Numbered from the stretch's first letter, positions 15,129-40,060 are shown. The stretch: DNA of 40,616 nt from Actinomycetota bacterium (GCA_018268595.1 JAFDWH010000015.1:1-40616), one strand, 5' to 3'. The notes: generated by a model not told the origin, from the sequence alone. Numbers and translations are program-made.

Positions 15129-15130
<2 letters not shown>
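14943..15130 (+). pseudogene. Remnant of an ABC-transporter ATP-binding gene with internal deletion
   Basis: In the plus-strand frame beginning at 14943, a stretch typical of PotA-type ATPases just before the Q-loop (VAGLSPAERGIGMV, ending at 15035) joins directly to the Walker B/D-loop stretch LDEPLGALDR (15036-15065). In the intact ATPase at 7187-8269 these segments are separated by about 76 residues that include the Q-loop and the LSGGQ signature. Walker A is not seen either. It lies in the 338-nt gap between the response-regulator and acetyl-CoA synthetase genes, opposite in strand to both. I read it as a decayed, internally deleted gene fragment rather than a working protein. Confidence 0.6.
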
Positions 15131-17098
<1,968 letters not shown>

Positions 17099-17102
<4 letters not shown>

Positions 17103-18361
17103 TCGAGTCGTGCTCCTCTCGTGTCCGTCGGCCACGCACCGTGCCGGAGGACGTGGCCCATGCGGTCGCGCTTGGCGCGCAGGTAGGCCTCGTTGTGCGG
17201 GTTGGGCAGGTGCTCGATCGGGATCTGGTCGTTCACGCGCAGCCCGTGCCCCTCGAGGCTGTGCAGCTTCTTCGGGTTGTTCGTCAGCAGCCGGATCGAG
17301 CTGAGGCCCAGGTCGGTGAGGATCTGAGCGCCGATCCCGTAGTCGCGCAGGTCGGCCGGCAGGCCGAGCTGGAGGTTCGCGTCGACCGTGTCGAGCCCCT
17401 CCTCCTGCAGCTTGTACGCGCGCAGCTTGTTGAGCAGGCCGATCCCCCGGCCCTCTTGCGAGAGGTAGAGCAGCACCCCGCGCCCCTCCTCCTCGATCGT
17501 CGCGAGCGCCGACTCGAGCTGCTCGCCGCAGTCGCAGCGCAGCGAGTGGAAGACGTCGCCCGTGAGGCACTCCGAATGCACCCGCACCAGCACGTCCTCC
17601 GCCCCGTCGACCTTGCCCTTGACCATCGCGACGTGGTGCTTGTCGTCGACCAGCGAGCGGTAGCCGACGACCTCGAAGTCGCCGAACGTGGTCGGCATGC
17701 GCGTCGCGACGACGCGCTCCACGAGCCGCTCGTGGCGGCGCCGGTAGGCGATCAGGTCGGCGATCGTGATGATCTTCACCCCGTGCCGGCGCGCGTAGGC
17801 GGTGAGGTCGTCGACGCGCGCCATCGTGCCGTCGTCGTTCATCACCTCGCAGATCACGCCGGCCGGGATGCGCCCCGCCAGCCGCGCGAGGTCGACCGAC
17901 GCCTCGGTGTGGCCGGCGCGCTCGAGCACCCCGCCGGGGCGCGCCTTGAGCGGGTTGACGTGGCCGCCCTTGACGATGTCGCGCGCGCCCTTGGCGGGAT
18001 CGACGGCGGTGCGCATCGTGTGCGCGCGGTCGGCCGCCGAGATGCCGGTGGTGACGCCCTCGCGCGCCTCGATCGTGACGGTGAAGGGCGTCTGGTAGGG
18101 CGTCTCGTTCTTGGCCGCCATCAGCTCGAGGTCGAGCTCGTCGCAGCGCTCGGGCGTGAGCGCGAGGCAGATCCAGCCGCGCGCGTGCGTGGCCATGAAG
18201 TTGACGTGCTCGGCCGTGACGCACTCGGCCGCCATCACGAGGTCGCCCTCGTTCTCGCGCGACTCGTCGTCCACGACGATCACCATGCGGCCGGCGGCGA
18301 CGTCCTCGAGCGCCGCCTCGATCGAGGCGAACGGGCGGGGCTGTGCGGCGGCGGCGGGCAT
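17099..18361 (-). CDS. ribBA: Bifunctional 3,4-dihydroxy-2-butanone-4-phosphate synthase / GTP cyclohydrolase II
   Basis: A 420-residue two-domain enzyme giving both first precursors of riboflavin. The N-terminal synthase domain (to about 205) has [12 protein letters not shown] at 31-42 and [14 protein letters not shown] at 150-163. The C-terminal cyclohydrolase domain has the zinc cysteines C265, C276 and C278 and EGRGIG at 303-308. Other rib genes are not adjacent, so this looks like a dedicated copy or an isolated locus. The leader is too short and shows no FMN-riboswitch-like block; instead the promoter carries a 19-bp palindrome shared with the flavin-monooxygenase operon. It overlaps acsA by 4 nt. 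Confidence 0.95.
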
Positions 18362-18377: not shown

Positions 18378-18420
18378 CTATTGGACTAGCTCTAAGTCCA
18401 TTTTATGCGATCGGTCAAGC
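18378..18420 (-). promoter_or_regulatory. ribBA-acsA promoter with 19-bp palindromic operator
   Basis: The minus strand has TTGACC, then 17 nt, then TTAGAG, or alternatively a TAAAAT box at 18400-18405. The palindrome TGGACTAGCTCTAAGTCCA (18382-18400, 6-bp arms) covers the presumed -10/+1 region. Aligned without gaps to 25858-25900 upstream of the monooxygenase operon, 27 of 43 positions agree, including GCTTG, AAATGG-CT-AG and CCA-TAG. An extra GGACTA half-site lies at 18375-18380. Position over the promoter suggests repression. Confidence 0.6.
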
Positions 18421-18479
18421 GAAGGCGGCGCCGGCGCGCGAAGCCCCCGCCGGCCGTGCCGCGCTCACGCCCCCGCGAG

Positions 18480-18519
18480 TGGACCTAAAGGCCATTTCCG
18501 CGCGCACGGGTGGTAGGGT
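18480..18519 (+). promoter_or_regulatory. gntR-family promoter: TAGGGT -10 (leaderless) and TGG-N9-CCA element
   Basis: TAGGGT (18514-18519) lies 7 nt before the ATG at 18527, the spacing of leaderless actinobacterial promoters. Upstream, TGGACCTAAAGGCCA (18480-18494) is a TGG-N9-CCA imperfect palindrome. The 7-mer CTAAAGG within it (18485-18491) also occurs at 18370-18376 in the ribBA leader. It is a candidate autoregulatory site. Confidence 0.45.
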
Positions 18520-18526
18520 CGGCCGC

Positions 18527-19273
18527 ATGGCCGACGACGGCGGACAGGCGATGGAGGCGGTGCGTCCGCCGGCGAGCTACGAGCTGGTCGTCGAGCAGGT
18601 CCGCCGCGCGATCCAGCTCGGCCGCTTCGGCCCGGGCGAGCGGCTGCCGCCCGAGCGCGAGCTGTCGCAGCAGCTCGGCGTCTCGCGCACGACCGTGCGC
18701 GAGGCGATGCGCGTGCTGCAGGGCGAGGGGCTGATCGAGATCAAGCGCGGCCGCGCCGGCGGCGCCGTCGTGCTCGGCGCGACGCTCTCCCCGCGCGACG
18801 CGCGCCGCCAGCTGCGCGCGCGGCTCGCCGAGCTGGAGGCGGTGATCGACTTCCGCCTCGTCGTCGAGCCGGCCGCCGCGCGGCGCGCCGCCGAGCGGCG
18901 CACGAAGCGCGACATCGCCGACCTGCGCGCGCTCGTGGAGCAGATGAGCGCGCTCGTCGCGCATGCCGGGGACGAGGACGCCGCGCCGCCGTCGCGCTTC
19001 TTCGCGCTCGACACGCGCTTCCACCAGCGGATCGCCGAGGCGGCGCGCAACCCGCTGCTGGCCGCCGCCGTCGAGCAGACCCGCTCCGCCCTCTTCACGC
19101 CCGTCGGCGGCGTGTTCGTCGGGCTGCACCCCGACGCGAACGCGCTGCACGAGGAGATCCTCGCCGCGATCGTGGCGCAGCGCCCCGACGAGGCCGAGCG
19201 CGCGATGGCCGAGCACATCGGCCTCACGCGCCAGGCGCTGCTGCAGCTCGCCGGTCAGACGCGCTCGAAGTAG
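18527..19273 (+). CDS. GntR-family transcriptional regulator, FadR/FCD subfamily
   Basis: A 248-residue regulator: winged helix-turn-helix at about 18-85 (GERLPPERELSQQLGVSRTTVREAMRVLQGEG split by family landmarks), then an all-helical FCD ligand domain at about 105-235. The FCD domain carries the expected acidic/His residues (FALDTRFHQRI, HEEIL, HIGLTR) that often hold a metal and bind an organic acid. The start at 18527 is set by TAGGGT 7 nt upstream; a GTG at 18479 would pass through the operator-like palindrome. It diverges from ribBA-acsA and converges with the ligase gene, overlapping it by 19 nt. It is the best local candidate for the protein that reads the TGG-N13-CCA sites. Confidence 0.9.
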   Translation: MADDGGQAMEAVRPPASYELVVEQVRRAIQLGRFGPGERLPPERELSQQLGVSRTTVREAMRVLQGEGLIEIKRGRAGGAVVLGATLSPRDARRQLRARLAELEAVIDFRLVVEPAAARRAAERRTKRDIADLRALVEQMSALVAHAGDEDAAPPSRFFALDTRFHQRIAEAARNPLLAAAVEQTRSALFTPVGGVFVGLHPDANALHEEILAAIVAQRPDEAERAMAEHIGLTRQALLQLAGQTRSK

Positions 19274-20715
19274 CGCACGAGCTCCCAATCGGTCACCGTC
19301 TCGTGGTCGAAGGCCGCGAGCTCCTGGCGGAAGAAGTTGACGAGGTGCGCGAACGCCTCCTCGCCGAACGCGGCGCGCGCCACCTCGCTGCCGGCGAACA
19401 GGTCGGTCGCCTCGCGCAGCGTCGTCGGCACGCGCAGCTCAGCAGCGCAGCCGGCCGCGTTGCCGCGCTGCTCCGCCGGCAGCGGCAGCGCCTGCTCGAC
19501 GCCCGCCAGCCCGGCCGCCGCGATCGCCGCGATCGCCAGGTACGGGTTCGCGTCCGCGCCGGGGATGCGGTGCTCGAGCCGCAGCGCCGGCCCCTCGCCG
19601 ACGACGCGCAGACCGCAGGTGCGGTTGTCGTGCCCCCAGGCGAGGTTCGTGCCGGCGAACTGGTCGGGCTGGAAGCGCTTGTAGGAGTTGACGTTGGGCG
19701 CGAACAGCACCGCCAGCTCGCGCCCGAACGCCGCCTGGCCGGCGATGAAGCGCCCGAGCAGCTCGCCGGGCGCGCCGCCGGCGTCGGCCTCGAAGCGCGG
19801 CGCCGCGCCGTCGGCGCTCCACAGGCTCGCGTGCACGTGACACGACGAGCCGACCTCGTCGATGGCCGGCTTCGCCATGAAGCTGACCGCGTGGCCGGCG
19901 AGCGCCGCCATCTCCTTGACGCCGTTCTTGTAGAGGACGTGGCGGTCGGCCATCTCGAGCGCATCGGTGTAGCGCAGGTTGACCTCCTGCTGCCCCAGCC
20001 CCCACTCCGCCTTCGAGAACTCGATCTCGATGCCGGCGGCGTCCATCGCGCGGCGCAGGCGGCCCATCAGCCAGTCGTCCTTCGTGGACTGGAGGATGTG
20101 GTAGTCGGCGCGGTAGTAGGACAGCGGCGTCAGCTCCCGGTAGCGGCGCTCCCACGCCGCGCGCGGCTCGTCCGCGAAGACGTAGAACTCCAGCTCGGTC
20201 GCGCACTTGAGCGCCGTCTCGCGCGCCGCCCAGCGCGCCAACTGGCGCTTGAGCAGGTTGCGCGGCGCGACCGCGACCGGCTCGCCGGTCTGCTCGTCGC
20301 AGGGGTCGCACAGCACGACCGCCGTGCGCGGCAGCCACGGCACCGCGCGCAGCGTCGCGAGGTCGGGCACGAGCCGACAGTCGCGGAAGCCGTCGTCCCA
20401 GCCGGTCATCGCGTAGCCCGGCCGCGGCTCCATCTCCATGTCGACGACGAACAGGTAGAGCGAGGCGTGCAGGCCCTCGCCGCCGAGCGCCGTCTTGAGG
20501 AACGTCTGCGGCGTCAGGCGCTTGCCGACGAGCCGGCCCCACAGGTCCGGCGTGACGCACAGGACCGTCTCGAGCGCCCCCTCGGCGACGAGCCGCTCGA
20601 CCTGCTCGAGCGACAAGCGGCCCTCGAGCGGCGGGCCGTCCTGCGGCACCGTCGCCGCCCCGAATGAGCCGGCGACGGCGGCGAGCGCGTCCTGTTCGAT
20701 CTGCGGTGGGTTCAT
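19255..20715 (-). CDS. Glutamine-synthetase-like ligase (PuuA/gamma-glutamylamine synthetase-like), copy 2
   Basis: A 486-residue GS-superfamily enzyme. The catalytic landmarks are present: E174/E176 ([10 protein letters not shown]), GQQEVN at 241-246, HVH at 293-295, NSYKR at 343-347, R365/R370 in DNRTCGLR, and [13 protein letters not shown]. It differs clearly from copy 1, for example [11 protein letters not shown] against RTGSGGHFNMS, so the two probably use different amines. Gamma-glutamylation of an amine released by the upstream operon enzymes is the likely role. The ATG at 20715 overlaps the SDR stop (ATGA). It is the last gene of the seven-gene operon, and its 3' end overlaps the convergent GntR-family gene by 19 nt. 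Confidence 0.88.
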
Positions 20716-21512
20716 GCGTTGTCCTTTCGGCGGACGGTCCCGAGCGTCAGCCCGCCGTCGACGATCAGCGTCTGGCCGGTCACGTAGGCCGCGGCGTCGC
20801 TGAGCAGGAACGCGACCGGTCCGGCGACCTCCTCGGGCGTGCCCATCCGCCAGCCGAGCGGGATGCGCTCCTCGATCGCGGCGCGCCGCGCCGGGTCGGC
20901 GTGCACGTCCGCGTTGATCGGCGTGGCGACGTAGCCGGGCGCGACCGCGTTCACGCGCACGCCGCGCGGCGCGAGGTCGGCCGCGAGCGCGCGCGTGAGC
21001 ATCTGCAACCCGCCCTTCGAGGCGGCGTAGTGCGGCGTCGTCGCCCCCGACGTGCTCAAGACGTGGAACGCCTCGACCGAGGTGACGTGCACGATCGCCG
21101 AGCCCGGCCGCAGCAGCTCCAGCAGGCGCGTCGCGAGCCGGTAGGGGCCGACGAGGTTGACCGCCAGCGTCTGCGCCCACTCCTCCCACGGCACGTCGGG
21201 GAACGACGAGCGCCCGAGCAGCCCGGCCGCGTCGACGATCCCCGCGAGCGGCGCGCCGGCGGCGACGAGCGCGTCCGCGAACGCGTCGACCGAGGCCGGG
21301 TCTCCGAGGTCCAGCGCCGCGGCGCGGGCCCCCTCCCCCAGCTCGGCCGCGACCGCCCCGGCGCGCTCGAGCGAGACGTCCGCCACGACGATCTCCCTCG
21401 CGCCGAGCGCACCGAGGCGGCGGGCGACGGCGGCGCCGAGCGCGCCGCCGCCCCCGACCACGAGCTGCGTGCCGGCCGGCAGGCCCGCGGGCGCGGCGGC
21501 GTCCATGGCCAT
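20712..21512 (-). CDS. Short-chain dehydrogenase/reductase
   Basis: A 266-residue SDR. The cofactor loop is unusual (VVGGGGALG in place of TGxxxGxG). The catalytic Ser (HVTSVEAF) and YxxxK (YAASKGG) are present, followed by [12 protein letters not shown] and a C-terminal [12 protein letters not shown] typical of FabG-like enzymes. It probably oxidises or reduces an alcohol/ketone intermediate with NAD(P)(H). The ATG at 21512 lies 2 nt after the stop of the 71-residue gene; an internal ATG at 21506 is possible. Its stop overlaps the start of the downstream ligase gene. Confidence 0.88.
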
Positions 21513-21514
21513 GT

Positions 21515-21730
21515 TCACCGCCGCGCCTCGCAGTCGTCCGTCGCGCGCGCGAGCTGCTCGCGCGCGACGCGTTGCAGATCCCGCAGGTAGTCGAGGTGCA
21601 GCGCCCACTCGAGGTCCAGCGCGCTCCCCGCCGCGAGGCGCGCGGTGTCCTCGTGCGCGTCGAGCAACTCATAGGCGAGCCGCGTCAGGCACTCGACGCG
21701 GGAGTCCGGATGGGGACGCGCGTGCGCCAT
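21515..21730 (-). CDS. Small protein of unknown function (71 residues) in the catabolic operon
   Basis: The reading frame sits between the DUF1116 and SDR genes with 7-nt and 2-nt spacers, and its start has GAGGA 5 nt upstream, so it is very likely translated. The sequence is charged and helical in style ([34 protein letters not shown]), without signal peptide or membrane segment, and with two cysteines. I do not recognise a family. A role as small partner subunit of a neighbouring enzyme is possible by position only. Confidence 0.65.
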
Positions 21731-21737
21731 CACGTCC

Positions 21738-22994
21738 TCAGCCGGCCGCGAGCCGGTCGCTTGCCTGCACGAAGCACTCGATCGGCGCGCGGATCACGCC
21801 AGCGCCGATCTGGCCGCCGTCGCGTCCGGCGATGCCGATGTCCATCAGCGGCAGGATCCCCGTCTCGAGGACCCGCGCGACGTCGATGCCGGTCGGCGTG
21901 CCGCGGTACTGCAGGAACGGGATCAGGAAGTGCGGGTGCTCGCCGACGGTGATCTCGTACATCTCGAGGTTACGCTCGACCATCACCTCGGGGGAGCCGC
22001 CTTGATAGCGCTGGAGGCAGAACGCCGCCGCCTGCGCGAAGCCGCCGAGGCCGACCGTCTCGGTGATCGGGCTCTCGCCGCCCATCCACGCGATCTCGTC
22101 CTCCGTGTGGCCCTCGAACAGCCGCGCCTGGACGGTCGCGTGCGGGCCGCGCAGCCACGCGTCGCCGAGCCCGCTGACGCGGATCGAGAAGCCGCGGCAG
22201 CTGAACGCCATCGCGGTCACGACGCTCGCGCCCTCGACGCCGCGCGCGGCGTCGGCGGACGCCTTCGCAGCCGCCATCGAGAGGCGCAGGAAGAAGTAGT
22301 CGTTGCCGTCGAGCGCCTGCAGGACCTCCAGCACGCGCTCGTCGCCGCCGGCCGCCATCGCCGTCAGCGCCGGCGTGAGCGCGTGCGTGAACAGCAGCGT
22401 GCCGGCGGTGTTGCGGCTGTGCAGCTCGTCGCCCATCTGCAGCGCGCGGCGCATGATCGGCCGCAGCGGCACGCCGCCGGTGCGGCGGATCGCCTCGTCG
22501 AGCACCGGCGCGACGACGTCGTTGACGTAGCGCAGGCGGTCGCGCACCTCGTCGTCGTAGACGCCGTAGTTGAGCCGCTTCGGCTCGTTTCCCTCGTAGA
22601 AGTTGCAGTAGCCGACGTTGCCGCCGGCGGCGTTCTCGACCACGAAGACCGGCATCGACCACGTGTAGATGCCGGCGAGCGAGCCGACGCAGTCGTGGTC
22701 GTGGCAGGCGCCGACGCGGATCTCGCCGGCGTCGAGCTTGCGGATCGCCTCCTCGCGGTCGGCCGCGAGCCCCTCGAACAGCGCGCCGCCGATGATCGCC
22801 TCGCGCTGGCCGCCGACGTACTCGCTCCAGGGCAGCGGCGCGCCCGAGGTCAGCACGAGGTCGCGCGTCATCCCGGGCAGCACCTCGCCGGCCGGGCGCA
22901 CCTCGCGCAGGACCGGCTCGGCGCTCACGATCCGCCGGAACGCCTCCTGGTTGGCCCGCGTGCGCGGGCTGCCGTCGAGCACCGCGCCGGTCAT
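21738..22994 (-). CDS. DUF1116 (AllG/YlbE/YahG-like) family protein, copy 2
   Basis: A 418-residue paralogue of the protein at 2540-3790, sharing long identical blocks: GACHDH-CVGSLAGIYT-SMPVFVVEN, RLNYGVYD-EVR, MGDELHSRN-A-TLLFT, ETVGLGGFAQAAAF, and GGQIGAGV-RAP at the C-terminus. I estimate well over half of residues agree. As with copy 1, no AllF/FdrA or AllH partner is near, while a glutamine-synthetase-like gene is in the same operon. The ATG at 22994 overlaps the upstream SDR stop (ATGA). The function is unknown; carbamoyl/amide transfer or cleavage is suggested only by E. coli AllG. Confidence 0.85.
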   Translation of the reverse strand: MTGAVLDGSPRTRANQEAFRRIVSAEPVLREVRPAGEVLPGMTRDLVLTSGAPLPWSEYVGGQREAIIGGALFEGLAADREEAIRKLDAGEIRVGACHDHDCVGSLAGIYTWSMPVFVVENAAGGNVGYCNFYEGNEPKRLNYGVYDDEVRDRLRYVNDVVAPVLDEAIRRTGGVPLRPIMRRALQMGDELHSRNTAGTLLFTHALTPALTAMAAGGDERVLEVLQALDGNDYFFLRLSMAAAKASADAARGVEGASVVTAMAFSCRGFSIRVSGLGDAWLRGPHATVQARLFEGHTEDEIAWMGGESPITETVGLGGFAQAAAFCLQRYQGGSPEVMVERNLEMYEITVGEHPHFLIPFLQYRGTPTGIDVARVLETGILPLMDIGIAGRDGGQIGAGVIRAPIECFVQASDRLAAG

Positions 22995-23719
22995 CCGGCC
23001 ACCACCCCGCCGTCGGCGAGGATCGTCTCGCCGGTGATGTAGGAGGCGCGCTCGGAGATCAGGAACTCGACCACCTCGGCCATCTCGTCGACGCCGCCGA
23101 GGCGCCCGAGCGGCACCTGCTTGACGACCTCCTCGTCGCCGCCGGAGACCGCTCTCATCGCCGGGCTCATCGGCACCGCGATGAAGCCGGGCGCGAGCGC
23201 GTTGACGCGGATGCCGCGCGGCGCCAGCTCGGTCGCCTGGTAGCGCGTGAACGCGCACAGCCCGGCCTTGCTCGCGCCGTACAGCGAGGCGCCCTCGAGC
23301 CGGCCGATGAAGCCGGTGACGCTGGCGACGTTGACGATCGCGCCGCCGTCGCTCATGTGCGGCACGGCCAGCGAGCTGACGCGCGCGGCGCCGGCGACGT
23401 TGACCTCCCAGATGAGCGAGGCGTCGGCGTCCTCGAAGCCGGACATCGGCGTGAAGCGCACGATCCCGGCGCAGTTGACGACGGCGGCGATCGTGCCGGC
23501 GCGCGTGCCGGCCTCGACGAAGCCGGCGACGCTCACGCGGTCGGTCACGTCGACCTCGACTGCCTCGACCGAGGGGCCGCTCGGATCGCTCTGCGCGATC
23601 GCGCCGGCGAGGTCGCCGGCGATCACGTGCCAGCCCTCGCGCACGAGGCATGCGTTGATCGCCTGCCCGATGCCGCCGGCGCCGCCGGTCACGAGCGCCA
23701 CTCTGTTGTTGCTGCTCAC
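22991..23719 (-). CDS. Short-chain dehydrogenase/reductase
   Basis: A 242-residue classical SDR: TGGAGGIG at 11-18, NCAG, catalytic Ser in NVASVTGF, YGASKAG, then NALAPGFIAVPM and a YITGETILADGG end. A role as alcohol dehydrogenase or ketoreductase is likely. The start is GTG at 23719, overlapping the hydrolase stop as GTGA; the downstream DUF1116 start overlaps its own stop. Both overlaps indicate coupled expression. Confidence 0.9.
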   Translation of the reverse strand: MSSNNRVALVTGGAGGIGQAINACLVREGWHVIAGDLAGAIAQSDPSGPSVEAVEVDVTDRVSVAGFVEAGTRAGTIAAVVNCAGIVRFTPMSGFEDADASLIWEVNVAGAARVSSLAVPHMSDGGAIVNVASVTGFIGRLEGASLYGASKAGLCAFTRYQATELAPRGIRVNALAPGFIAVPMSPAMRAVSGGDEEVVKQVPLGRLGGVDEMAEVVEFLISERASYITGETILADGGVVAG

Positions 23720-24723
23720 TGCTCCGTCCTCCTGATCGCGTCGAAGCTCCTGCGGAGCGCGGCGCCGGCCAGCTCGACCGCGTCGCGCCCCTCCTCGAAG
23801 ACGGAGGGGAGCTGGAAGAACCCGTGGACCATCCCGGCGTAGGCGCGCTGCTCGACCGCGACGCCGGCGCGCGCGAGCGCCTCCGCGTACAGCTCGCCCT
23901 GGCGGTGCAGGGGATCGCACTGCGCCGTGATGACGAGCGCCGGGCACAGCCCCGCGAGGTCGTCGGCCTCCAGCGGCGAGACGAGCGGGTCGTCCCGCTG
24001 GCCGGGGTCCGCGAGGTAGTTGTCCTGATGCCACTGCAGCTCGTCGCGGTAGAGGAAGTAGCCCTGGTAGTCGCCGTCGAAGCCGACGTCGAGGTCGGTC
24101 GTCGTGACCGGGTAGGCGAGCACCTGCAGCGCCAGCGCCGGCCCGCCGCGGTCGCGCGCGAGCCGCGCGACGGCGGTCGCGAGGTTGCCGCCGGCGCTGT
24201 CGCCCGCGACCGCCACGCGCCGCGGGTCGACGCCCAGCTCGGCGGCGTGCTCGACCGTCCACAGCAGCGCCGCGTAGGCGTCCTCGACCGCGGTCGGGAA
24301 GCGCGCCTCCGGGCCGCGCCGGTACCCGACGCTGACGACGACCGCCGCGGCCGCGTTCGCGAGCGCGCGCGTGACGGCCTCGTGCGACTCGACGCTGCCG
24401 AGCAGCCAGCCGCCGCCGTGCAGGTAGACGACGGCCGGCAGCGTGCCGGCCGCGGGCCGGTAGCTGCGGGCGGGCACCGCGCCCCCCTCGACGGGGATGC
24501 GGTGGTCGCGCACCTCGGCGACGTCCTCGCCCGGCCCGACGGCGGCGAAGTCGGCGTCGAAGTTGCGGCGCGCCTGCTCGACCGGCAGCAGGTGCGCGTT
24601 CGGGCGCTCGGAGGCGAGCGCGCCGCGCAGCAGCTCGGCGGCGGCCGGCGCCAGCTCGTGGCCCTTGGCGGCCAGCACGCGCTCGGCGGCCGCGTCGCGG
24701 TCGCTCGTCTCGGGCGCGCTCAT
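23716..24723 (-). CDS. Alpha/beta-hydrolase fold-3 esterase/lactonase (hormone-sensitive-lipase-like)
   Basis: A 335-residue hydrolase with the oxyanion motif HGGGW at 102-106, nucleophile S176 in GDSAG, D270 and H300 (VHGFF), a complete catalytic triad. Family members cleave esters of short or medium acids, and some hydrolyse lactones or amides. No signal peptide is seen, so it is cytoplasmic. Following a flavin monooxygenase gene by a 4-nt overlap, it may open an ester or lactone formed by Baeyer-Villiger-like oxygenation; that is inference. The ATG is at 24723. Confidence 0.9.
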   Translation of the reverse strand: MSAPETSDRDAAAERVLAAKGHELAPAAAELLRGALASERPNAHLLPVEQARRNFDADFAAVGPGEDVAEVRDHRIPVEGGAVPARSYRPAAGTLPAVVYLHGGGWLLGSVESHEAVTRALANAAAAVVVSVGYRRGPEARFPTAVEDAYAALLWTVEHAAELGVDPRRVAVAGDSAGGNLATAVARLARDRGGPALALQVLAYPVTTTDLDVGFDGDYQGYFLYRDELQWHQDNYLADPGQRDDPLVSPLEADDLAGLCPALVITAQCDPLHRQGELYAEALARAGVAVEQRAYAGMVHGFFQLPSVFEEGRDAVELAGAALRRSFDAIRRTEQ

Positions 24724-25808
24724 GCCGTCACCTCGCTGGCGGCGAAGCGGGGCGCGACCTCTTCCGCGAAGCGGCGCGACCACAGCCGCCGCACGGCGTG
24801 CGGGACGCCCGGCGTGGCGGTGTGGATCAGGAAGTGGTTGAAGCCGGCGTCGACGTACTGCTGCACGCGCTGCGCGACCGTGTCGGGCGAGCCGACCAGC
24901 TGGTAGGTCGCCCACGCGGGGATCGCGGCCGGGTCCGTCTTCGCGCGCATGCCCTCGAACTGGCCCTTCCAGGGCGCGTAGTCGGGCAGCTGCTCCCAGT
25001 TCGTCTCGTCCGGCGTGTAGTGGTCGACCTGCGCCTGCATGTAGCGCGGGATGAACTCCTGCGCCTGCGCGATCGCCTCCGCGTCGGTGTCGGCGACGAT
25101 GCAGTTGATCATGATCGGCTTGAGCACGTCGGTCGTGAGGCCGCGCTCGCGCGCCGCCTCGTCCCACGTGCGCAGCACCTGCGCGTTGGCCTCGAAGTCG
25201 CCGATCGTGGTGCAGATCGGCGGCAGGCCCGCCTCCGCGATCACGCGCGCGCTGCTGGGGCTGCCGATCGCGCCGTAGAAGTGGATGCGGTCGGTCGTGA
25301 CGCCGGCGACGCGCGGGCGCAGCTCGATCTCCTTCTCGACCCGCACCTGGTTGCCGCGGTAGCTGAAGCGCCCGCCGGCGAGCGCGCGCCGCAGCACCTC
25401 CCAGATCTCCGTGAAGCGCTCGCGGCTGGCGCCCATGTCGAGGCCGAACGCGTCGAACTCGTACTTGGCGGTGCCGCGGCCGAGGCCGAGGTGCAGTGGC
25501 TGCTCGGTCAGCAGGCTCAGCATCGCGATCTCGCCGGCGAGCCGCAGCGGCTCGTGCCACGGCGTGACGAGGACGCACGTGCCGAGCGCCAGCTCCGGGA
25601 AGCGCGCGGCCAGGTGGCTCGCGAGCAGCAGCGGGCTGGGCGTCGGGAAGTAGTCGCTGAAGTGGTGCTCGATCAGCCAGACGGTGCGGTAGCCGAGCGA
25701 CGCCTGGCAGTCGACGTCCTCGAGCAGCGTCCGGTACAGGTCCCGGTCGGAGGTGCCGGGGGCGTCCGCGGCAGACGCCACGACGCCGAACGTCACGTTC
25801 CCATTCAC
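24720..25808 (-). CDS. LLM-class flavin-dependent monooxygenase, copy 1
   Basis: A 362-residue luciferase-like (TIM-barrel) oxidoreductase: VWLIEHHFSDY, LGTCVLVTPWHEPLRLAGEIA, LGLGRGTAKYEF and a C-terminal GSPDTVAQRVQQYVDAGFNHFL segment. Such enzymes use reduced FMN supplied by a separate reductase to insert oxygen or cleave C-N, C-S or ring bonds; RutA is a distant relative. It starts with GTG at 25808, with GGAGGGC about 9 nt upstream. It is first in the seven-gene operon and its promoter carries the operator shared with ribBA. The FMN reductase at 39473 could be its partner. Confidence 0.9.
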   Translation of the reverse strand: MNGNVTFGVVASAADAPGTSDRDLYRTLLEDVDCQASLGYRTVWLIEHHFSDYFPTPSPLLLASHLAARFPELALGTCVLVTPWHEPLRLAGEIAMLSLLTEQPLHLGLGRGTAKYEFDAFGLDMGASRERFTEIWEVLRRALAGGRFSYRGNQVRVEKEIELRPRVAGVTTDRIHFYGAIGSPSSARVIAEAGLPPICTTIGDFEANAQVLRTWDEAARERGLTTDVLKPIMINCIVADTDAEAIAQAQEFIPRYMQAQVDHYTPDETNWEQLPDYAPWKGQFEGMRAKTDPAAIPAWATYQLVGSPDTVAQRVQQYVDAGFNHFLIHTATPGVPHAVRRLWSRRFAEEVAPRFAASEVTA

Positions 25809-25857
25809 AGCCTGCGCCCTCCTCGGGTCTCGACCTGCGGCCAACACGACCTTACGT

Positions 25858-25900
25858 CTAATGGTCCACAGCTTAGCCCATTTATCGAGACGAGGCAAGC
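25858..25900 (-). promoter_or_regulatory. Promoter/operator of the monooxygenase-ligase operon
   Basis: On the minus strand TTGCCT (25893-25898), 17 nt, then TAAGCT (25870-25875). The element TGGTCCACAGCTTAGCCCA (25862-25880, plus-strand reading) overlaps the -10 and has the TGG-N13-CCA layout of the ribBA operator. The ungapped 43-nt alignment with 18378-18420 keeps the -35-like GCTTG-C, AAATGG-CT-AG and CCA-TAG. The leader to the GTG is about 55 nt. Confidence 0.6.
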
Positions 25901-25977
25901 GCGGCGCCCGGCACGCTGCTGCGGTCACGGCACGAGGCGCTGCCGCTCCCGCGCACCACGCGGGCAATTCGGGCGAT

Positions 25978-25996
25978 TGGTCTATTCTTGATTCCA
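25978..25996 (+). promoter_or_regulatory. Operator-like TGG-N13-CCA and TATTCT -10 before the amidotransferase
   Basis: TGGTCTATTCTTGATTCCA lies directly before the ATG at 25998 and contains a possible -10, TATTCT (25983-25988), 9 nt from the start. No Shine-Dalgarno sequence is visible, so a leaderless or near-leaderless transcript is likely. The left arm TGGTCT and right CCAAAT match the site at 39405-39423. Confidence 0.45.
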
Positions 25997-25997
25997 A

Positions 25998-26747
25998 ATG
26001 TCCGACGTGCCCGCCGCCCGACCCGCCCGCCTGCCGCGCGTGCTCGTGCTCGAGCACCTGCCGCCCGGCCCGCCGGACGCCTACGAGCTGACGCTCGCGC
26101 GGCTCGGCGTCGAGCGCGTCCACGTGCGCCCGCCCGCGGGCGAGCCGCTGCCGGACTGGCGCGCGTTCGACGGCGTGCTCGCGCTCGGCGGCCCGATGCA
26201 CGCGCGCGACGACGAGGCGCACCCGTGGCTCGCCGCCGAGCGGCGGCTGATCGGCGAGGCCGTGCGCGCCGGCACGCCGTACTGGGGCGTCTGCCTCGGC
26301 GCGCAGTTGCTGGCGGCCGCGCTCGGCGCGCCCGTGCGGCGCGGCGAGGAGCCCGAGGTCGGCGTGCTGCCCGTGACGGTCGACCGCGAGGCGGCCCGGC
26401 GCGACCCCGTCTTCGCGGACGCGCCCGCGCGCTTCCACACGCTCGAATGGCACGCCGACACGTTCGAGCTGCCGGACGGGGCGACGCTGCTCGCCGGCTC
26501 CGCGCGCTACCCGCACCAGGCGTTCGTGTGGCGGCGCGCCTACGGCGTGCAGTTCCACCTCGAGCCGACCGTCGCGCTCGCGCGCCACTGGGCGCACAAG
26601 CCCGGCTACGCGCCGCTCGCGACCGCGCTTTCGCCGGACCGGCTCGAGGCGCTGCTGGCCGAGCTCGAGCGGCACGCGGCCGCCGCGACCGCGCTCGCCG
26701 CCCGCCTGCTGACGCGCTGGACGGGTCTGCTGCGCACCGGCGGCTGA
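25998..26747 (+). CDS. Class-I glutamine amidotransferase domain protein (GuaA-type/glutamyl-amide hydrolase-like)
   Basis: A 249-residue stand-alone triad amidotransferase: nucleophile C99 in GVCLGAQLLA, H187 and E189 in VQFHLEP. Stand-alone members hydrolyse gamma-glutamyl amides (as PuuD does) or serve as amidotransferase subunits. With a glutamylamine-synthetase-like gene in the divergent operon, removal of a gamma-glutamyl group after catabolism is an attractive role, but sequence alone does not prove it. A 30-residue Ala-rich helix ends the protein. The ATG is at 25998. Confidence 0.85.
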   Translation: MSDVPAARPARLPRVLVLEHLPPGPPDAYELTLARLGVERVHVRPPAGEPLPDWRAFDGVLALGGPMHARDDEAHPWLAAERRLIGEAVRAGTPYWGVCLGAQLLAAALGAPVRRGEEPEVGVLPVTVDREAARRDPVFADAPARFHTLEWHADTFELPDGATLLAGSARYPHQAFVWRRAYGVQFHLEPTVALARHWAHKPGYAPLATALSPDRLEALLAELERHAAAATALAARLLTRWTGLLRTGG

Positions 26748-31386: not shown

Positions 31387-32520
31387 TTAGACCGCCGTCG
31401 CCTCGACGCTCATCTCCTCGCTCTCGCCGATCACCGGGCCGTGCGTGACGACCGTCCCGGGCGACTTGAAGTGCGGGATCACGTACTTGCCGATCGCCTC
31501 GATCTGGCGGATGTGCTCCTCGTGCGTGTCGCCGTCGATGCGGATCACGACCTCGTCGGCGCCCAGCTCCTGGTGGCGCTTGAGCGTCTCGATCCAGTGC
31601 TCCGGGTCGCCGACGAGCACCGGCGGCAGCGTGCGCAGGAAGTCGACGTCCTCGACGCGGTCGCGCAGTTTCGCGATCTGCGCCGTGTAGCCGTAGTCCT
31701 CCTCGTTGCGCGTGCTGAGGTCCGGGTAGTACTCGACGATGATCGCCTTCGCGAAGCGCAGCAGGTTGCGCCGCGCCTTCGCCATCGCCTCCTCGTTCGT
31801 CTCGCAGCAGTAGGCCGTGAAGACCGAGGTGCCGATCGAGTCGACCGCGTAACGGCCGACCGGTCTCGGGTCGGCGGCCCCGCGCTTGTACGCCTGGATC
31901 ACCTCGCCGAGGTACTCCCAGCCGAGGTACAGGTCGGACGTGATGACACCGAGGCCGTTGCGGCCGGCGCGCTCGGCCGAGTCGACGCTCTGCGAGATCT
32001 TGTAGAGCGGCGGGTGCGGCGTCTGCACCGGGTTCGGCGTCAGCGAGCGCCGCGGGATGTTGCCCCAGTATCTGCTGTTGTAGGCGAACGAGTCGTCGGA
32101 CAGCGCCTGCACGATGATCTCGAGCGCCTCCTCGGAGCGGCCGGCCGTCTCCTCCAGCGGCACGTTGAACGCGTCCAGCTGGACGAGCGTGTTGCCGCGC
32201 GCCGTCGTCAGCTCGACGCGGCCGTTGGAGAGGATGTCGATCGCGGCGATCCGCTCGGCGCAGCGGATCGGGTTGTTGATCGACAGGATCAGGCTCATGA
32301 AGCGCAGCCGGATCCGGCTCGTCTTCATCGCGACCGCGGCGTAGAACGACTCGGGGGCCGAGCAGGTCGCGAGGTCGTAGAGGAAGTGGTGCTCGGACGT
32401 GCCCCACACGTCCCAGCCCATCTCCTCCGCGCAGACGGCCTCCTCGATCGACTCCCACCAGCGGCGGTGGTGCGTCTGGCCGTGCAGCGTCTCGTTCTCG
32501 GTCAGCATGACGAAGCGCAC
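31387..32520 (-). CDS. LLM-class flavin-dependent monooxygenase, copy 2
   Basis: A 377-residue luciferase-like oxidoreductase: WGTSEHHFLYD, RLRFMSLILSINNPIRCAERIAAID, DILSNGRVELTTARGN and the C-terminal GADEVVIRI barrel strand. It is clearly diverged from the copy at 24720. It needs reduced FMN from a partner reductase. It starts at GTG 32520 with AAGGAG 6 nt upstream; a downstream ATG at 32508 lacks such a site. It follows the ABC permease gene by 64 nt, so the importer may bring its substrate. Confidence 0.9.
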   Translation of the reverse strand: MRFVMLTENETLHGQTHHRRWWESIEEAVCAEEMGWDVWGTSEHHFLYDLATCSAPESFYAAVAMKTSRIRLRFMSLILSINNPIRCAERIAAIDILSNGRVELTTARGNTLVQLDAFNVPLEETAGRSEEALEIIVQALSDDSFAYNSRYWGNIPRRSLTPNPVQTPHPPLYKISQSVDSAERAGRNGLGVITSDLYLGWEYLGEVIQAYKRGAADPRPVGRYAVDSIGTSVFTAYCCETNEEAMAKARRNLLRFAKAIIVEYYPDLSTRNEEDYGYTAQIAKLRDRVEDVDFLRTLPPVLVGDPEHWIETLKRHQELGADEVVIRIDGDTHEEHIRQIEAIGKYVIPHFKSPGTVVTHGPVIGESEEMSVEATAV

Positions 32521-32584
32521 GATGAACTCCTTGAATTGAGCGATTGATCGGTGTGGGTACGGTTGGGTTGCGGGTGGGCGTGCA

Positions 32585-33577
32585 TCAGCTCCGCCGCCTT
32601 CGCGCCCAGGCGTCGATCGAGACGGCCAGGACGATCAGCGCGCCGGTCACCACGCGCTCGTAGAGCGGGTCGACGCCGAGCAGGTTGAAGCCGTTGCCGA
32701 CGAGCGCCAGAAACAGCACGCCGACGACGGTGCGCCAGATCGCGCCCTCGCCGCCCGCGATCGAGGTGCCGCCGATCACGACGGCCGCGATCGCCGTCAG
32801 CTCCAGCCCGGCGCCGGCGTCGGCGGTCGCGCTCGACACGCGCGAGGCGACGATCACGCCGGCGAGCCCCGCGCCGAGGCCCGACAGCGCGAACGTCGCG
32901 CCGCGCACGACGTTGACGCGGATGCCCGACAGGCGCGCCGCCTCGGCGTTGCCGCCGACGGCGTAGACGTAGCGGCCGAAGGTCGTCCGCGCCAGCACGA
33001 ACCAGGCGACCGTGACGACGATCACGAGCGCGACGCTCGCGCGCGTCAGCCCCGACACGAGCGCGTCCTGCGGGAAGAAGCGGAAGCTGTCGTCCTCGAC
33101 GATCACCTGCGAGCCGCCGGTGACGGCGAGCGCGACGCCGCCGACGATGATCGACATCGCGAGCGTCGCGATGAACGAGTTCATCCGCCCGACCGTCACG
33201 AGCAGGCCGTTGAGGACCCCGACGCCGAGCCCGACGCCGCAGCCGGCGAGGATGCCGAGCAGGGGGCCGGTCTCGTTCGCGACCTTGCACGCCATCACGC
33301 CGGCGAGCGCGAAGATCGCCGCGACCGACAGGTCGAGGCCGCCCGCGACGATCACGAGCGTCGCGCCGCAGGCGATGATGCCGAGGTCGGCCTGCTGGTC
33401 GAGGATGTTCAGCAGGTTCGTCTGCGTCAGGAACGCGCTGCTCGCGATCGACAGCGCGACGAACAGCGCGACGAGGCTGATCAGCACGCCGTAGTCGCGC
33501 AGCGCGTCGAGCGACACGCGCGGCGCGAAGCCGCGCGGCGGCGCCTCGGCCGCGTAGGACCCGTCGTGGGCCGTCAT
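32585..33577 (-). CDS. ABC importer permease, ribose/sugar type (RbsC-like)
   Basis: A 330-residue membrane protein with about 8-10 spans and the family segments VIVAGGLDLSVAAIFALAG, VGRMNSFIATLAM and GGTSIAGGEGAIWRTVVGVL. It forms the channel of a carbohydrate-uptake-2 type importer with the ATPase and binding protein just upstream. The ATG at 33577 overlaps the ATPase stop (ATGA). Confidence 0.93.
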   Translation of the reverse strand: MTAHDGSYAAEAPPRGFAPRVSLDALRDYGVLISLVALFVALSIASSAFLTQTNLLNILDQQADLGIIACGATLVIVAGGLDLSVAAIFALAGVMACKVANETGPLLGILAGCGVGLGVGVLNGLLVTVGRMNSFIATLAMSIIVGGVALAVTGGSQVIVEDDSFRFFPQDALVSGLTRASVALVIVVTVAWFVLARTTFGRYVYAVGGNAEAARLSGIRVNVVRGATFALSGLGAGLAGVIVASRVSSATADAGAGLELTAIAAVVIGGTSIAGGEGAIWRTVVGVLFLALVGNGFNLLGVDPLYERVVTGALIVLAVSIDAWARRRRS

Positions 33578-35109
33578 CTGCTCCTCCCTTCGGCGACCGC
33601 CCCGAAGGCGGCGCTCATCACGTTTCCCTCTGTCGCCTCGCCGTCGGCGAACGCCCCGACGAGCCGTCCCTCGCGCATCACCAGCACGCGGTGGGCGAGG
33701 CCGAGCACCTCCTCCAGCTCGGACGAGATCAGCAGCACCCCCATGCCGGCGGCGGCGAGCGAGACGATCAGCTCGTAGATCGCCTCCTTCGCGCCGACGT
33801 CCACGCCGCGCGTCGGCTCGTCGGCGATCAGCAGGCGCGGCTCGTGCATCAGCGCCTTCGCGAACAGCACCTTCTGCTGGTTGCCGCCCGACAGCGTGAA
33901 GACCGGGGCGCGCTCGCGGCCGGCGCGCAGCCCGACGCGCGCGCCCATCTGGGCCGCGGCGCCGCGCTGGCGGCGCGGCGCGACGACGTGCGCGCGCGAG
34001 AGGCCGTCGAGGTGCGGCAGCGTGATGTTCTCGACGCCCGAGCGCAGCATCACGAGCCCGTCGTGCTTGCGGCTCTCAGGCAGCAGCGAGATGCCGGCCC
34101 GCGCCGCGTGGCGCGGCGAGCGCGGGTCGACGCGGCGCCCGCACACGGAGATCGCGCCGGCGTCGCGATGGTCGGCGCCGTAGATCGCGCGCGCCACCTC
34201 CGAGCGGCCGGAGCCGATCAGGCCCGCCATCCCGACGATCTCGCCGGCGCGCACGTCGAGGTCGACGCCGCGCACGACGCGCCCGCGCACGAGCCCGCGC
34301 ACCGACAGCACGGCCGGCGCGTCGGGCGGCGGCGGCGCCTTCGGCGGGAAGACGGTCGTCAGCGGACGGCCGAGCATCGAGCCGATCAGGCTGTCGCGCG
34401 TCTCGCCGGCGGCCGGCGCGGTGCGCACGTGGCAGCCGTCGCGCAGCACCGTGACGGTGTCGGCGAGCGACAGCACCTCGTCGAGGAAGTGCGAGACGTA
34501 GACGATCGTGACGCCGTCGGCCTGCAGCCGGCGGATGTCGGCGAACAGCTTCTTCGCCTCGTCGGTGGCGAGCCCGGCGGTCGGCTCGTCCATCACGATC
34601 AGCCGCGCGTCGCGCGCGATCGCGCGCATGATCTCCAGCTTCTGCTGGTCGGCGAGCCGCAGCGCGCCGGCCGGCATCGACGGCGGCAGCGCGAAGCCGG
34701 AGCGCTCGACGAGCCGCTCGTAGCGGCGCAGCAGCGCGCGCCGGTCGACGACGCCGAGCGTGCGCGACTCGACGCCGAGGAACACGTTCTCCAGCACCGT
34801 GCGCTGCGGCACGAGCGCCAGCTCCTGGGCGATGATCGTGACGCCGTCGACGAGCGCGTCGTGGGGCGAGCGGTAGCGCACCGCCCGCCCCCCGACGATC
34901 AGCTCGCCGGCATCGTGCTGGATGCCGCCCGCGAGGATCTTGCCGAGCGTCGACTTGCCGGCGCCGTTCTCGCCGACGAGCGCGTGGATCGAGCCGCGCG
35001 CGATCGTCAGGCTGACGTCCGACAGCGCCTGGACGCCGCCGAAGCGCTTGCTGATGCCGCGCAGCTCGACGTACGGTCCGCTCGACGTGGATCCTCGCGG
35101 GGCGCTCAT
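33574..35109 (-). CDS. ABC importer ATP-binding protein, double-domain sugar type (RbsA/MglA-like)
   Basis: A 511-residue protein with two fused nucleotide-binding domains. The N-terminal half has an intact Walker A (GENGAGKST), a degenerate signature (LRLADQQKLEIMRA) and Walker B (LIVMDEPTAGL). The C-terminal half has the degenerate loop GLIGSGRSE typical of this family, a good signature (LSGGNQQKVLFAKAL) and LLIADEPTRGVD. It energises the RbsC-like permease. The ATG at 35109 is 19 nt after the binding-protein stop. Despite the sugar-type architecture, the downstream enzymes suggest a nitrogenous cargo. Confidence 0.93.
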   Translation of the reverse strand: MSAPRGSTSSGPYVELRGISKRFGGVQALSDVSLTIARGSIHALVGENGAGKSTLGKILAGGIQHDAGELIVGGRAVRYRSPHDALVDGVTIIAQELALVPQRTVLENVFLGVESRTLGVVDRRALLRRYERLVERSGFALPPSMPAGALRLADQQKLEIMRAIARDARLIVMDEPTAGLATDEAKKLFADIRRLQADGVTIVYVSHFLDEVLSLADTVTVLRDGCHVRTAPAAGETRDSLIGSMLGRPLTTVFPPKAPPPPDAPAVLSVRGLVRGRVVRGVDLDVRAGEIVGMAGLIGSGRSEVARAIYGADHRDAGAISVCGRRVDPRSPRHAARAGISLLPESRKHDGLVMLRSGVENITLPHLDGLSRAHVVAPRRQRGAAAQMGARVGLRAGRERAPVFTLSGGNQQKVLFAKALMHEPRLLIADEPTRGVDVGAKEAIYELIVSLAAAGMGVLLISSELEEVLGLAHRVLVMREGRLVGAFADGEATEGNVMSAAFGAVAEGRSR

Positions 35110-35128
35110 CGCGTTCGCCTCGCTCCGC

Positions 35129-36181
35129 TCACCACTGCGCCTTCGGCAGCTTCGCCTTCACCTGCGCGAAGTTGCGCTGCGTGACGACGGGCGGGACGCC
35201 GCGCTTCTCGATCGGGCTGATGCCCTGCGGCTTGTCGTTCCCGCGGGCGGCGCCGATCGCGACGCGGGCGGAGTACATGCCCTCGTCGTACGGCAGCGTG
35301 ACGTAGGTGCCGAACCAGCGGCCGGCGGGGATCGCCTTGAACGACTCGCTGCTGGCGCCGCCGCCGAGCAGCTTGACCTTGCCCTCCAACCCGCGCTGCT
35401 TGACGGCCTGCTCGGCGCCGACCGTCATCGGGTCGCTCGCCGACGCGATCACGTCGAGGCCGGGGTGGGCCTGCAAGAGGTCCTGGGTGACTCTGTAGCC
35501 GAGGTTCTTGTCGTAGAACGCCTGCTCGACGGCGTCGAGCTTGATGTCCGAGCTGCCCGCGACGCCCTGCTTGATGACGTCGATGATCGCCTTGTTGTAC
35601 GGGTCGGCGAGCACGCCGGCGAGGAACACGACCTCGCACGGTCTCGTGTCGGCGCAGGCCTGGTCGATCAGGTCGAGGATCCATCTGCCGCGCGTGGCGG
35701 CGGGGTCGAACACGGCGCCGCTCTGGCCCGGGATCTGCGGCTCGGTCGTCGTGTAGTCCTGGCCGACCGGGAAGTCGGTGGTGACGACCTTGATGCCGGC
35801 CTTGATCGCCGACTCCAGACACGGCTTGATCGTCGCGTCGACCGCGAGCACCACGAGCGCCTGGTACTGCTGCGAGGCGATCGCGTCCTGGCACTGCGAG
35901 AACTGCCGCTCGGCCTTCAACTGCGCGTCGAAGACCTTCACGCTCGCGCCGCTTCTGGCCGCCTCGTCCTCGATGCCCTTCGCGGTCGAGGTGTTGTAGG
36001 TGTTGGCGAGCGACTGCGCCAGGAACGCGACGTTGACGTGCTTCTGGCCGCCTCCGCCGGTGCTCCCGCTGCTGCTGCTGCTGCTGCCGTTGTCGCCACA
36101 CGCGACGAGCCCGAGCGCGAGCGCGCTCGCGAGCACGCCGACGACGACGCGCGCGGCGCGCGCCCTGATCCTCCAGACCAT
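35129..36181 (-). CDS. ABC importer solute-binding lipoprotein (RbsB/periplasmic-binding type 1)
   Basis: A 350-residue lipoprotein: Arg-rich start and hydrophobic segment ending in ALGLVACG (lipobox Cys), a Ser/Gly linker, then a two-lobed domain beginning VNVAFLAQSLANTYN, with VLAVDATIKPCLESAIKAGIKVV and GLDVIASASDPMTVGAEQA. It captures the substrate outside the membrane. Two ATGs are possible, 36187 and 36181; GGAGG lies 9 nt before 36181 and only 3 nt before 36187, so I prefer 36181. It is first in the nine-gene set and divergent from the LAL regulator. Confidence 0.9.
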   Translation of the reverse strand: MVWRIRARAARVVVGVLASALALGLVACGDNGSSSSSSGSTGGGGQKHVNVAFLAQSLANTYNTSTAKGIEDEAARSGASVKVFDAQLKAERQFSQCQDAIASQQYQALVVLAVDATIKPCLESAIKAGIKVVTTDFPVGQDYTTTEPQIPGQSGAVFDPAATRGRWILDLIDQACADTRPCEVVFLAGVLADPYNKAIIDVIKQGVAGSSDIKLDAVEQAFYDKNLGYRVTQDLLQAHPGLDVIASASDPMTVGAEQAVKQRGLEGKVKLLGGGASSESFKAIPAGRWFGTYVTLPYDEGMYSARVAIGAARGNDKPQGISPIEKRGVPPVVTQRNFAQVKAKLPKAQW

Positions 36182-36298
36182 CTGCATCTCCCTCCGGTGA
36201 CGGGCTCGGCGGCCGCGTCCGCGACCGCGTCGGCGGCCGCGCGACGGCGCCGAGTCCTGAGCTGGGCGGACCATAGGCCCGCTCGGCAGCCGCGTCGC

Positions 36299-36335
36299 CA
36301 CCAGGGTGCAGTGGTGTTTCTCACCCCAGGGGGGT
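36299..36335. promoter_or_regulatory. Clustered inverted repeats between the ABC operon and the LAL regulator
   Basis: Within the 228-nt divergent spacer lie CACCA-N8-TGGTG (36299-36316), GGTG-TTTCT-CACC (36313-36325) and ACCCC-AGG-GGGGT (36323-36335). They overlap one another and sit about 115 nt from the binding-protein start and 75 nt from the regulator start. They may be operators for the LuxR-type regulator. The rest of the spacer is GC-rich with no clear promoter box. Confidence 0.4.
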
Positions 36336-36409
36336 GGGGAAGCGGGCGCGCGGCGCGCCGCCCCGGTCGGCCTGGATGCGGCTGCAATACTTGGCCGGAG
36401 AGAGGAGAG

Positions 36410-39385: not shown

Positions 39386-39423
39386 TTGACGCCAATGGAT
39401 ATAATGGTCTTTCAATCGGACCA
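39386..39423 (+). promoter_or_regulatory. FMN reductase promoter with TGG-N13-CCA palindrome
   Basis: TTGACG (39386-39391) and a perfect TATAAT (39400-39405) are present, though only 8 nt apart, so they are not a standard pair. TGGTCTTTCAATCGGACCA (39405-39423, 5-bp arms, 9-nt spacer) follows directly. The order TTGAC, AT-rich ATATAATGG, then palindrome resembles 18378-18420 with a 1-nt shift, and the left arm matches the site before the amidotransferase. Confidence 0.5.
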
Positions 39424-39472
39424 AATATCGCGGAGCGTCGGACGCGGACCGGCGAGACAGCGGAGGTGGAGG

Positions 39473-40060
39473 ATGAAGGTCGTCGGCATAGGAGGCTCCA
39501 CGAGAGCCGGCTCGAGCACCGAGCTGCTGCTGCGCGCGATCCTCTCCTCGACCGAGGCGCTCGGCGCGGAGACCGCCCTCGTGACGGGCGAGGAGCTGCT
39601 GCTGCCGCCGTACGAGCCGGGCGCGCGCCTGCCGGACCACGGGCTGCGGCTCGTCGAGCTGGCGCGCGAGGCCGACGCCGTCGTGATCGGCTCGCCGGGA
39701 TACCACGGCGGCATCTCCGGCCTCGTCAAGAACGCGCTGGACTACCTCGAGGAGCTGCGCGAGGACGACGTCCCGTACCTGGCCGAGCGGCCCGTGGGGC
39801 TCGCCGTCACGGCCTACGGCTGGCAGGCGGCGGTCACGACGCTCACCGCGCTGCGCCAGATCGCGCACGCGCTGCGCGGCTGGCCGACACCGCTCGGGAT
39901 CGCCGTCAACGTGGCGGCGACGCCGCTCGGCGGCCAGGGGCCGCCCGCCGACGCCGGCCTGCAGGGGCGGATCGAGCAGATGGCGCGCGAGCTGGTCGGC
40001 TTCGACCGCCCGCACCGCGTCGCGCCGGCGCTCCACGCGGGCGGACGGCTGGCCTCGTAG
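39473..40060 (+). CDS. NADPH-dependent FMN reductase (SsuE/flavodoxin-like)
   Basis: A 195-residue flavodoxin-fold reductase: phosphate-binding [11 protein letters not shown] at 5-15, [19 protein letters not shown] for isoalloxazine contact, and a conserved [10 protein letters not shown] segment. It would reduce FMN with NAD(P)H and hand it to two-component monooxygenases; two LLM-class genes lie upstream in the window. The ATG at 39473 has GGAGGTGGAGG just before it. Its operator-like palindrome links it to ribBA and the monooxygenase operon. Confidence 0.9.

Follow-up and report, generated by a model that had tools for sequence, protein, structure and literature searches.

Which regulator, if any, ties the synthesis of a flavin precursor to a catabolic monooxygenase operon is the question raised by a 40,616-nt stretch of DNA from an Actinomycetota bacterium (GCA_018268595.1, JAFDWH010000015.1:1-40616; hereafter the window). 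The initial annotation had proposed that a 43-nt promoter/operator block is shared by ribBA-acsA and the monooxygenase operon, that a GntR-type protein might bind it, and that flavin supply would thereby be matched to monooxygenase demand. The genes concerned are the following:

15129..17069, minus strand: acsA, acetate-CoA ligase; ribBA ends about 30 nt upstream
17099..18361, minus strand: ribBA, second copy, with intact motifs of both DHBP synthase and GTP cyclohydrolase II
18479..19273, plus strand: GntR-family regulator, FCD subfamily (PF00392, PF07729); start may be 18527 or 18551
19255..20667, minus strand: glutamine-synthetase-like ligase, gamma-glutamylation type by similarity, below family cut-offs; 5' end not fixed
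20712..21512, minus strand: second short-chain dehydrogenase
21738..23000, minus strand: AllG-like protein (PF06545); 5' end not fixed
22991..23725, minus strand: short-chain dehydrogenase; 5' end not fixed
23716..24609, minus strand: alpha/beta hydrolase (Abhydrolase_3); 5' end not fixed
24720..25808, minus strand: luciferase-like (LLM) monooxygenase (PF00296), first gene of the operon
39473..40060, plus strand: NADPH-dependent FMN reductase (PF03358, E 6e-26)

The gntR gene converges with the monooxygenase operon and diverges from ribBA-acsA. The AllG-like protein has a paralogue at 2540–3790, the two being 66% identical as proteins and 75% identical over 1226 nt of DNA; each lies near a glutamine-synthetase-like gene, and these two ligases are 29% identical.

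The operator and its promoters

Read on the minus strand from 18420 (GCTTGACCGATCGCATAAAATGGACTTAGAGCTAGTCCAATAG) and from 25900 (GCTTGCCTCGTCTCGATAAATGGGCTAAGCTGTGGACCATTAG), the two promoter stretches agree without gaps at 27 of 43 bases and both contain TGG-N13-CCA, as had been stated initially. Such identity by itself is common and not rare in this GC-rich window (73.5% G+C), where exactly 27/43 is scored by 68,442 of 8.2e8 window pairs. Among window 43-mers with at most 24 G+C, 18378–18420 and 25858–25900 form the best non-coding pair, and all pairs above 27/43 in this set come from the coding DNA of the AllG paralogues. A 23-bp palindrome accounts for 15 of the 27 matches and the -35 region for most others; the main common features are the -35 hexamer (TTGACC and TTGCCT), the palindrome and a subsequent TAG. 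The pair is beyond chance because a matrix from foreign phyla and a genome-wide consensus both single out these sites.

An LLM orthologue at E ≤ 1e-50 was not found in 145 other genomes of the same family, and distant orthologues were therefore compared. The LLM monooxygenase query over 84,980 species genomes yielded 37 loci, mostly alphaproteobacterial, together with one from Gemmatimonadota, one from Streptosporangiaceae and three weak actinobacterial matches. In six loci (L065, L066, L067, L073, L076, and L077), the monooxygenase is clustered with a GntR orthologue of 46–50% identity and with hydrolase, dehydrogenase, ligase or AllG genes. Palindromes such as TTGGTCTAACTTCTAGACCATTG are located upstream of the monooxygenase or AllG genes in these GntR-bearing loci of alphaproteobacteria and Gemmatimonadota, and the consensus of the foreign operators, AATGGTCTA-N5-TAGACCATT (TGGTCTA-N5-TAGACCA), exhibits the same TGG-N13-CCA frame as the window sites. 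Comparison of promoters between these distant orthologues places the palindrome upstream of the LLM gene in 6/6 loci where a GntR orthologue lies alongside (leave-one-out scores 18–23), as opposed to LLM upstream scores of at most 14.2 in the 28 loci without GntR (Mann-Whitney p 8e-5). Sites outside the training set were found upstream of gntR (L065, L076, and L077) and of the GS ligase gene (L067).

Two side observations concern the alphaproteobacterial loci. Another conserved promoter, CATTGACAG...GATGGCCCGAGTCTC, lies upstream of the monooxygenase in L068–L072, L074, and L075, where a GntR neighbour was not detected. At L065:15245-15267, an operator (19.9) precedes an operon that encodes a branched-chain-type ABC transporter and an aminotransferase and that probably also belongs to the alphaproteobacterial GntR regulon.

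A matrix of seven foreign sites from other phyla, which includes no window site but whose members were first chosen by visual inspection with knowledge of the window motif, such that the selection was not blind, gave scores over the window of 19.2 at 25860, 16.6 at 39403, 14.9 at 18380, and 10.2 at 25976, followed by 5.4 for the next site. The best score in 60 simulated windows was 10.4. At 56% GC, 0.002, 0.018, and 0.064 sites per window are expected for 25860, 39403, and 18380, respectively; the site at 25976 is just suggestive, since about 1.3 such sites are expected per window. The sites and their predicted -35 elements are:

18380..18402, minus strand: operator 1, AATGGACTTAGAGCTAGTCCAAT, between the divergent ribBA and gntR genes, overlapping the predicted ribBA -10; score 14.9, rank 3
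18413..18418, minus strand: predicted -35 TTGACC of ribBA-acsA, 16 bp before operator 1
25860..25882, minus strand: operator 2, AATGGGCTAAGCTGTGGACCATT, in the monooxygenase operon promoter; score 19.2, rank 1
25893..25898, minus strand: predicted -35 TTGCCT of the monooxygenase operon, with TAAGCT 17 nt on as -10
39403..39425, plus strand: operator 3, AATGGTCTTTCAATCGGACCAAA, preceding the FMN reductase gene; score 16.6, rank 2
39386..39391, plus strand: predicted -35 TTGACG of the FMN reductase gene
25976..25998, plus strand: weak operator-like site, ATTGGTCTATTCTTGATTCCAAA, flanked by the monooxygenase operon and an amidotransferase gene; score 10.2, borderline

The top three sites of the foreign matrix are thus the putative operators of three promoters, which supports the common regulation proposed earlier. 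Both sites initially described are real, while a third member, the FMN reductase gene at 39473–40060, had been missed. A further palindrome-like site near gntR (AAATGGCCTTTAGGTCCACT; 18479–18500, minus strand) was dropped, as its TGG-N9-CCA spacing does not fit.

In the window promoters, the operator begins 16–17 bp past the start of the -35 hexamer. Hexamers with at least 5/6 TTGACA bases start 15–18 bp before the operator at 8 of 15 sites versus 1/120 in other registers, a count of -35-like hexamers that none of 2000 shuffles equals. As this register is shared across sites, the promoter-operator layout is conserved across phyla. The suggested -35 match (TTGACC/TTGCCT) is consequently upheld, its register being kept in other phyla. 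Of the proposed 43-nt block, the promoter with its operator stands, but the functional unit is the 23-bp palindrome over the -10 region.

The pattern WWTGGNCYN7RGNCCAWW, written with the three window sites already seen, matches exactly three sites in the 3.57-Mb genome, all of them in the window and within 21 kb, and its reversed control gave 0 matches in this genome. Five matches in total were obtained in 60 relatives, corresponding to a background of about 0.08 per genome. A genomic match to a looser pattern (C26:91887) was rejected as near background, the reversed control also having given one. As sequence predictions, the operators and their confinement to three promoters of coherent function are firm.

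Flavin genes probably served by the operator

Behind the promoters that carry the operator lie genes for a member of a flavin-dependent enzyme family, for the enzyme with which flavin synthesis begins and for an FMN-reducing enzyme. The nearest solved relatives of the LLM monooxygenase are bacterial luciferase alpha chains; no equivalog cut-off was reached, and its cofactor would be FMN rather than F420. In the likely pathway, a ketone-like or heterocyclic compound would be oxygenated, with hydrolysis and alcohol oxidation as the subsequent steps, and release of acetate from the pathway would explain acsA. The window also holds a second luciferase-like monooxygenase unit (31387–36301, minus strand) that diverges from a large LuxR-type ATPase regulator (36478–39337, plus strand) and includes a sugar-type ABC transporter (Peripla_BP_4, ABC_tran, BPD_transp_2). 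A GntR-type operator was not found before this unit (31387–39337).

The ribBA gene of the window is an extra copy. The other copy, 76% identical, is located on contig C10 in a ribD-ribE-ribBA-ribH arrangement and is the housekeeping one. The operator was not found at this housekeeping rib operon. No Rfam match was obtained in the window or in the surroundings of the housekeeping rib operon, so an FMN riboswitch was not found upstream of the rib genes. The initial view of ribBA as a regulated flavin-precursor gene therefore holds insofar as ribBA shares the operator, but it applies to the extra copy and not to the housekeeping gene. In relatives, at least 8 of 24 extra ribBA-like genes have an LLM gene within 15 kb, versus 0 of 57 best (housekeeping-like) copies among the matches listed (Fisher p 2e-5), these counts being lower bounds since the contigs are broken. 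In L117, L118, and L134 of the same family, an FMN reductase gene lies directly beside a ribBA-like gene, with luciferase-like monooxygenases near this pair in L117 and L118; these clusters appear to be dedicated flavin-supply modules. The association of ribBA, LLM and FMN reductase genes thus exists elsewhere as gene clusters, while in this genome its members are spread across 21 kb and linked by the operator. In the orthologous clusters from other phyla, no match to ribBA or FMN reductase was obtained near the operators; as putative targets, both have so far been seen in this genome only.

The operator could be real for the catabolic operon and for autoregulation of gntR, with any effect on ribBA being a by-product of the divergent region that serves no flavin-supply purpose. 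Such a reading fits the site at 18380 lying between gntR and ribBA, and operators being found upstream of gntR in L065, L076, and L077. It is nevertheless unlikely, given that the distance from this site to the ribBA start is 18 nt but that to the likely gntR starts about 125–150 nt, and that it sits in the -35 register for ribBA, as in other phyla. In addition, the FMN reductase gene has an operator of its own 13–21 kb away, and the additional ribBA copies of relatives are found clustered with LLM genes. The earlier flavin-supply idea survives, its strongest support being the FMN reductase as a putative third member.

The GntR/FCD regulator

The GntR protein of 18479 combines an N-terminal winged helix (PF00392, E 6e-20) with a C-terminal FCD domain (PF07729, E 1.1e-24), and its helix-turn-helix is conserved in the orthologues. 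Its closest solved relatives include NanR, PdhR and the Corynebacterium-type GntR protein 2di3, which is LldR (PMC4494728). Like these local regulators of the GntR FadR/FCD type, it has the PF00392 and PF07729 domains, is encoded beside its probable catabolic targets, and would act through TGGT-type half-sites in an operator over the promoter. It differs from them in that the putative targets here include flavin synthesis and an FMN reductase, and in that GT and AC are 11 nt apart instead of 2–3 nt. The canonical operator of the FadR subfamily has GT and AC 2–3 nt apart, with NanR and BioR as exceptions (PMC4494728), and the 2–3 nt spacing is therefore typical and not strictly defining. The 11-nt gap points to either unusual binding by the regulator or the involvement of another protein.

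The latter would be the case if a different regulator, for example one encoded elsewhere, bound the sites and the neighbouring GntR were coincidental. Besides the departure from the FadR-subfamily canon (PMC4494728), the Streptosporangiaceae locus L097 agrees with this, having a moderate site (14.2) with GntR not detected nearby, though its flanks are short. We regard it as improbable, marginally more so than the by-product reading, because operator presence follows the GntR orthologue across loci, as the earlier naming of GntR as candidate would suggest, and because the half-site TGGTMTA resembles the TGGTAT repeats of NanR and NagQ (PMC4494728), NanR being among the closest solved relatives. 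The operators are thus likely bound by the GntR of 18479. Among distant actinobacterial GntR relatives, neither operator nor LLM was found near L137 and L138, whereas in L139 and L140 a site is present upstream of gntR or close to it, with differing neighbours. Finally, a chance likeness of two AT-rich promoters in a GC-rich genome, due to common -35 and -10 elements and an AT-rich spacer, would account for the 27/43 identity, which alone is frequent across the window, but is already disfavoured and very improbable considering the conservation of the palindrome across phyla and the restriction to exactly three genomic sites at genes of related function against the low background.

Proposed regulation and its relation to known systems

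The reading we favor, with a probability of roughly 0.8, is that a local GntR repressor co-switches the FMN-dependent monooxygenase operon, ribBA-acsA and the FMN reductase gene. An operator for the GntR/FCD regulator would be placed within each promoter, where the palindrome covers the -10 region and the probable start site, such that a bound dimer would block RNA polymerase; this position argues for repression by occlusion. A catabolite, probably the monooxygenase substrate or a pathway intermediate, would release GntR and turn on the three units, and the monooxygenase would be made along with extra flavin and a reductase supplying FMNH2. Given its location in the ribBA-gntR divergent region, the site at 18380 may also serve gntR, which is probably autoregulated. 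The sequence itself shows the shared operators, their confinement to three promoters of the genome, their conservation alongside GntR in other phyla and, at the level of families, what the genes encode. GntR binding, repression and the inducer are what we infer, as is the physiological purpose, for which matching flavin supply to the monooxygenase is plausible.

SsuD/SsuE is a two-component FMN-dependent monooxygenase system. As in this system, a luciferase-like monooxygenase (PF00296) and an NADPH-FMN reductase (PF03358) are found here, under a shared operator from whose sequence common control is inferred; unlike in SsuD/SsuE, the reductase gene forms a separate unit 13.6 kb off, and the putative regulon also takes in a gene of flavin synthesis. 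The rib genes of the lux-rib operon of Photobacterium serve riboflavin synthesis. This operon, in which luciferase-family genes are expressed with rib genes (PMC5489566, PMC10763503), is the nearest known case tying a luciferase-family enzyme to riboflavin genes. It is one contiguous operon devoted to light emission, whereas the units here (15129–18361, 19255–25808, and 39473–40060) are separate, share an operator and include a catabolic operon in an unrelated bacterium. In the literature searched, a link between ribBA, a GntR protein and a luciferase-like monooxygenase was not found.

In a broader reading, which we hold at even odds, a catabolic GntR repressor with an unusual, wide-spaced palindrome recruited a duplicated ribBA and an FMN reductase gene into the regulon of a horizontally acquired monooxygenase operon. 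The pathway's substrate would then induce synthesis, reduction and use of the cofactor as a unit, and this would be a general way for this bacterial family to equip its LLM monooxygenases. Monooxygenases that use free flavin compete for a scarce cofactor with all its other users in the cell, and the making of flavin is usually viewed as housekeeping. If true, a regulon that responds to substrate and supplements the monooxygenase with a reductase and a dedicated enzyme for the first step of flavin synthesis would be a simple form of supply-demand matching. It would predict why many genomes have an extra ribBA beside luciferase-like monooxygenases, and would offer a practical hint for expressing these enzymes.
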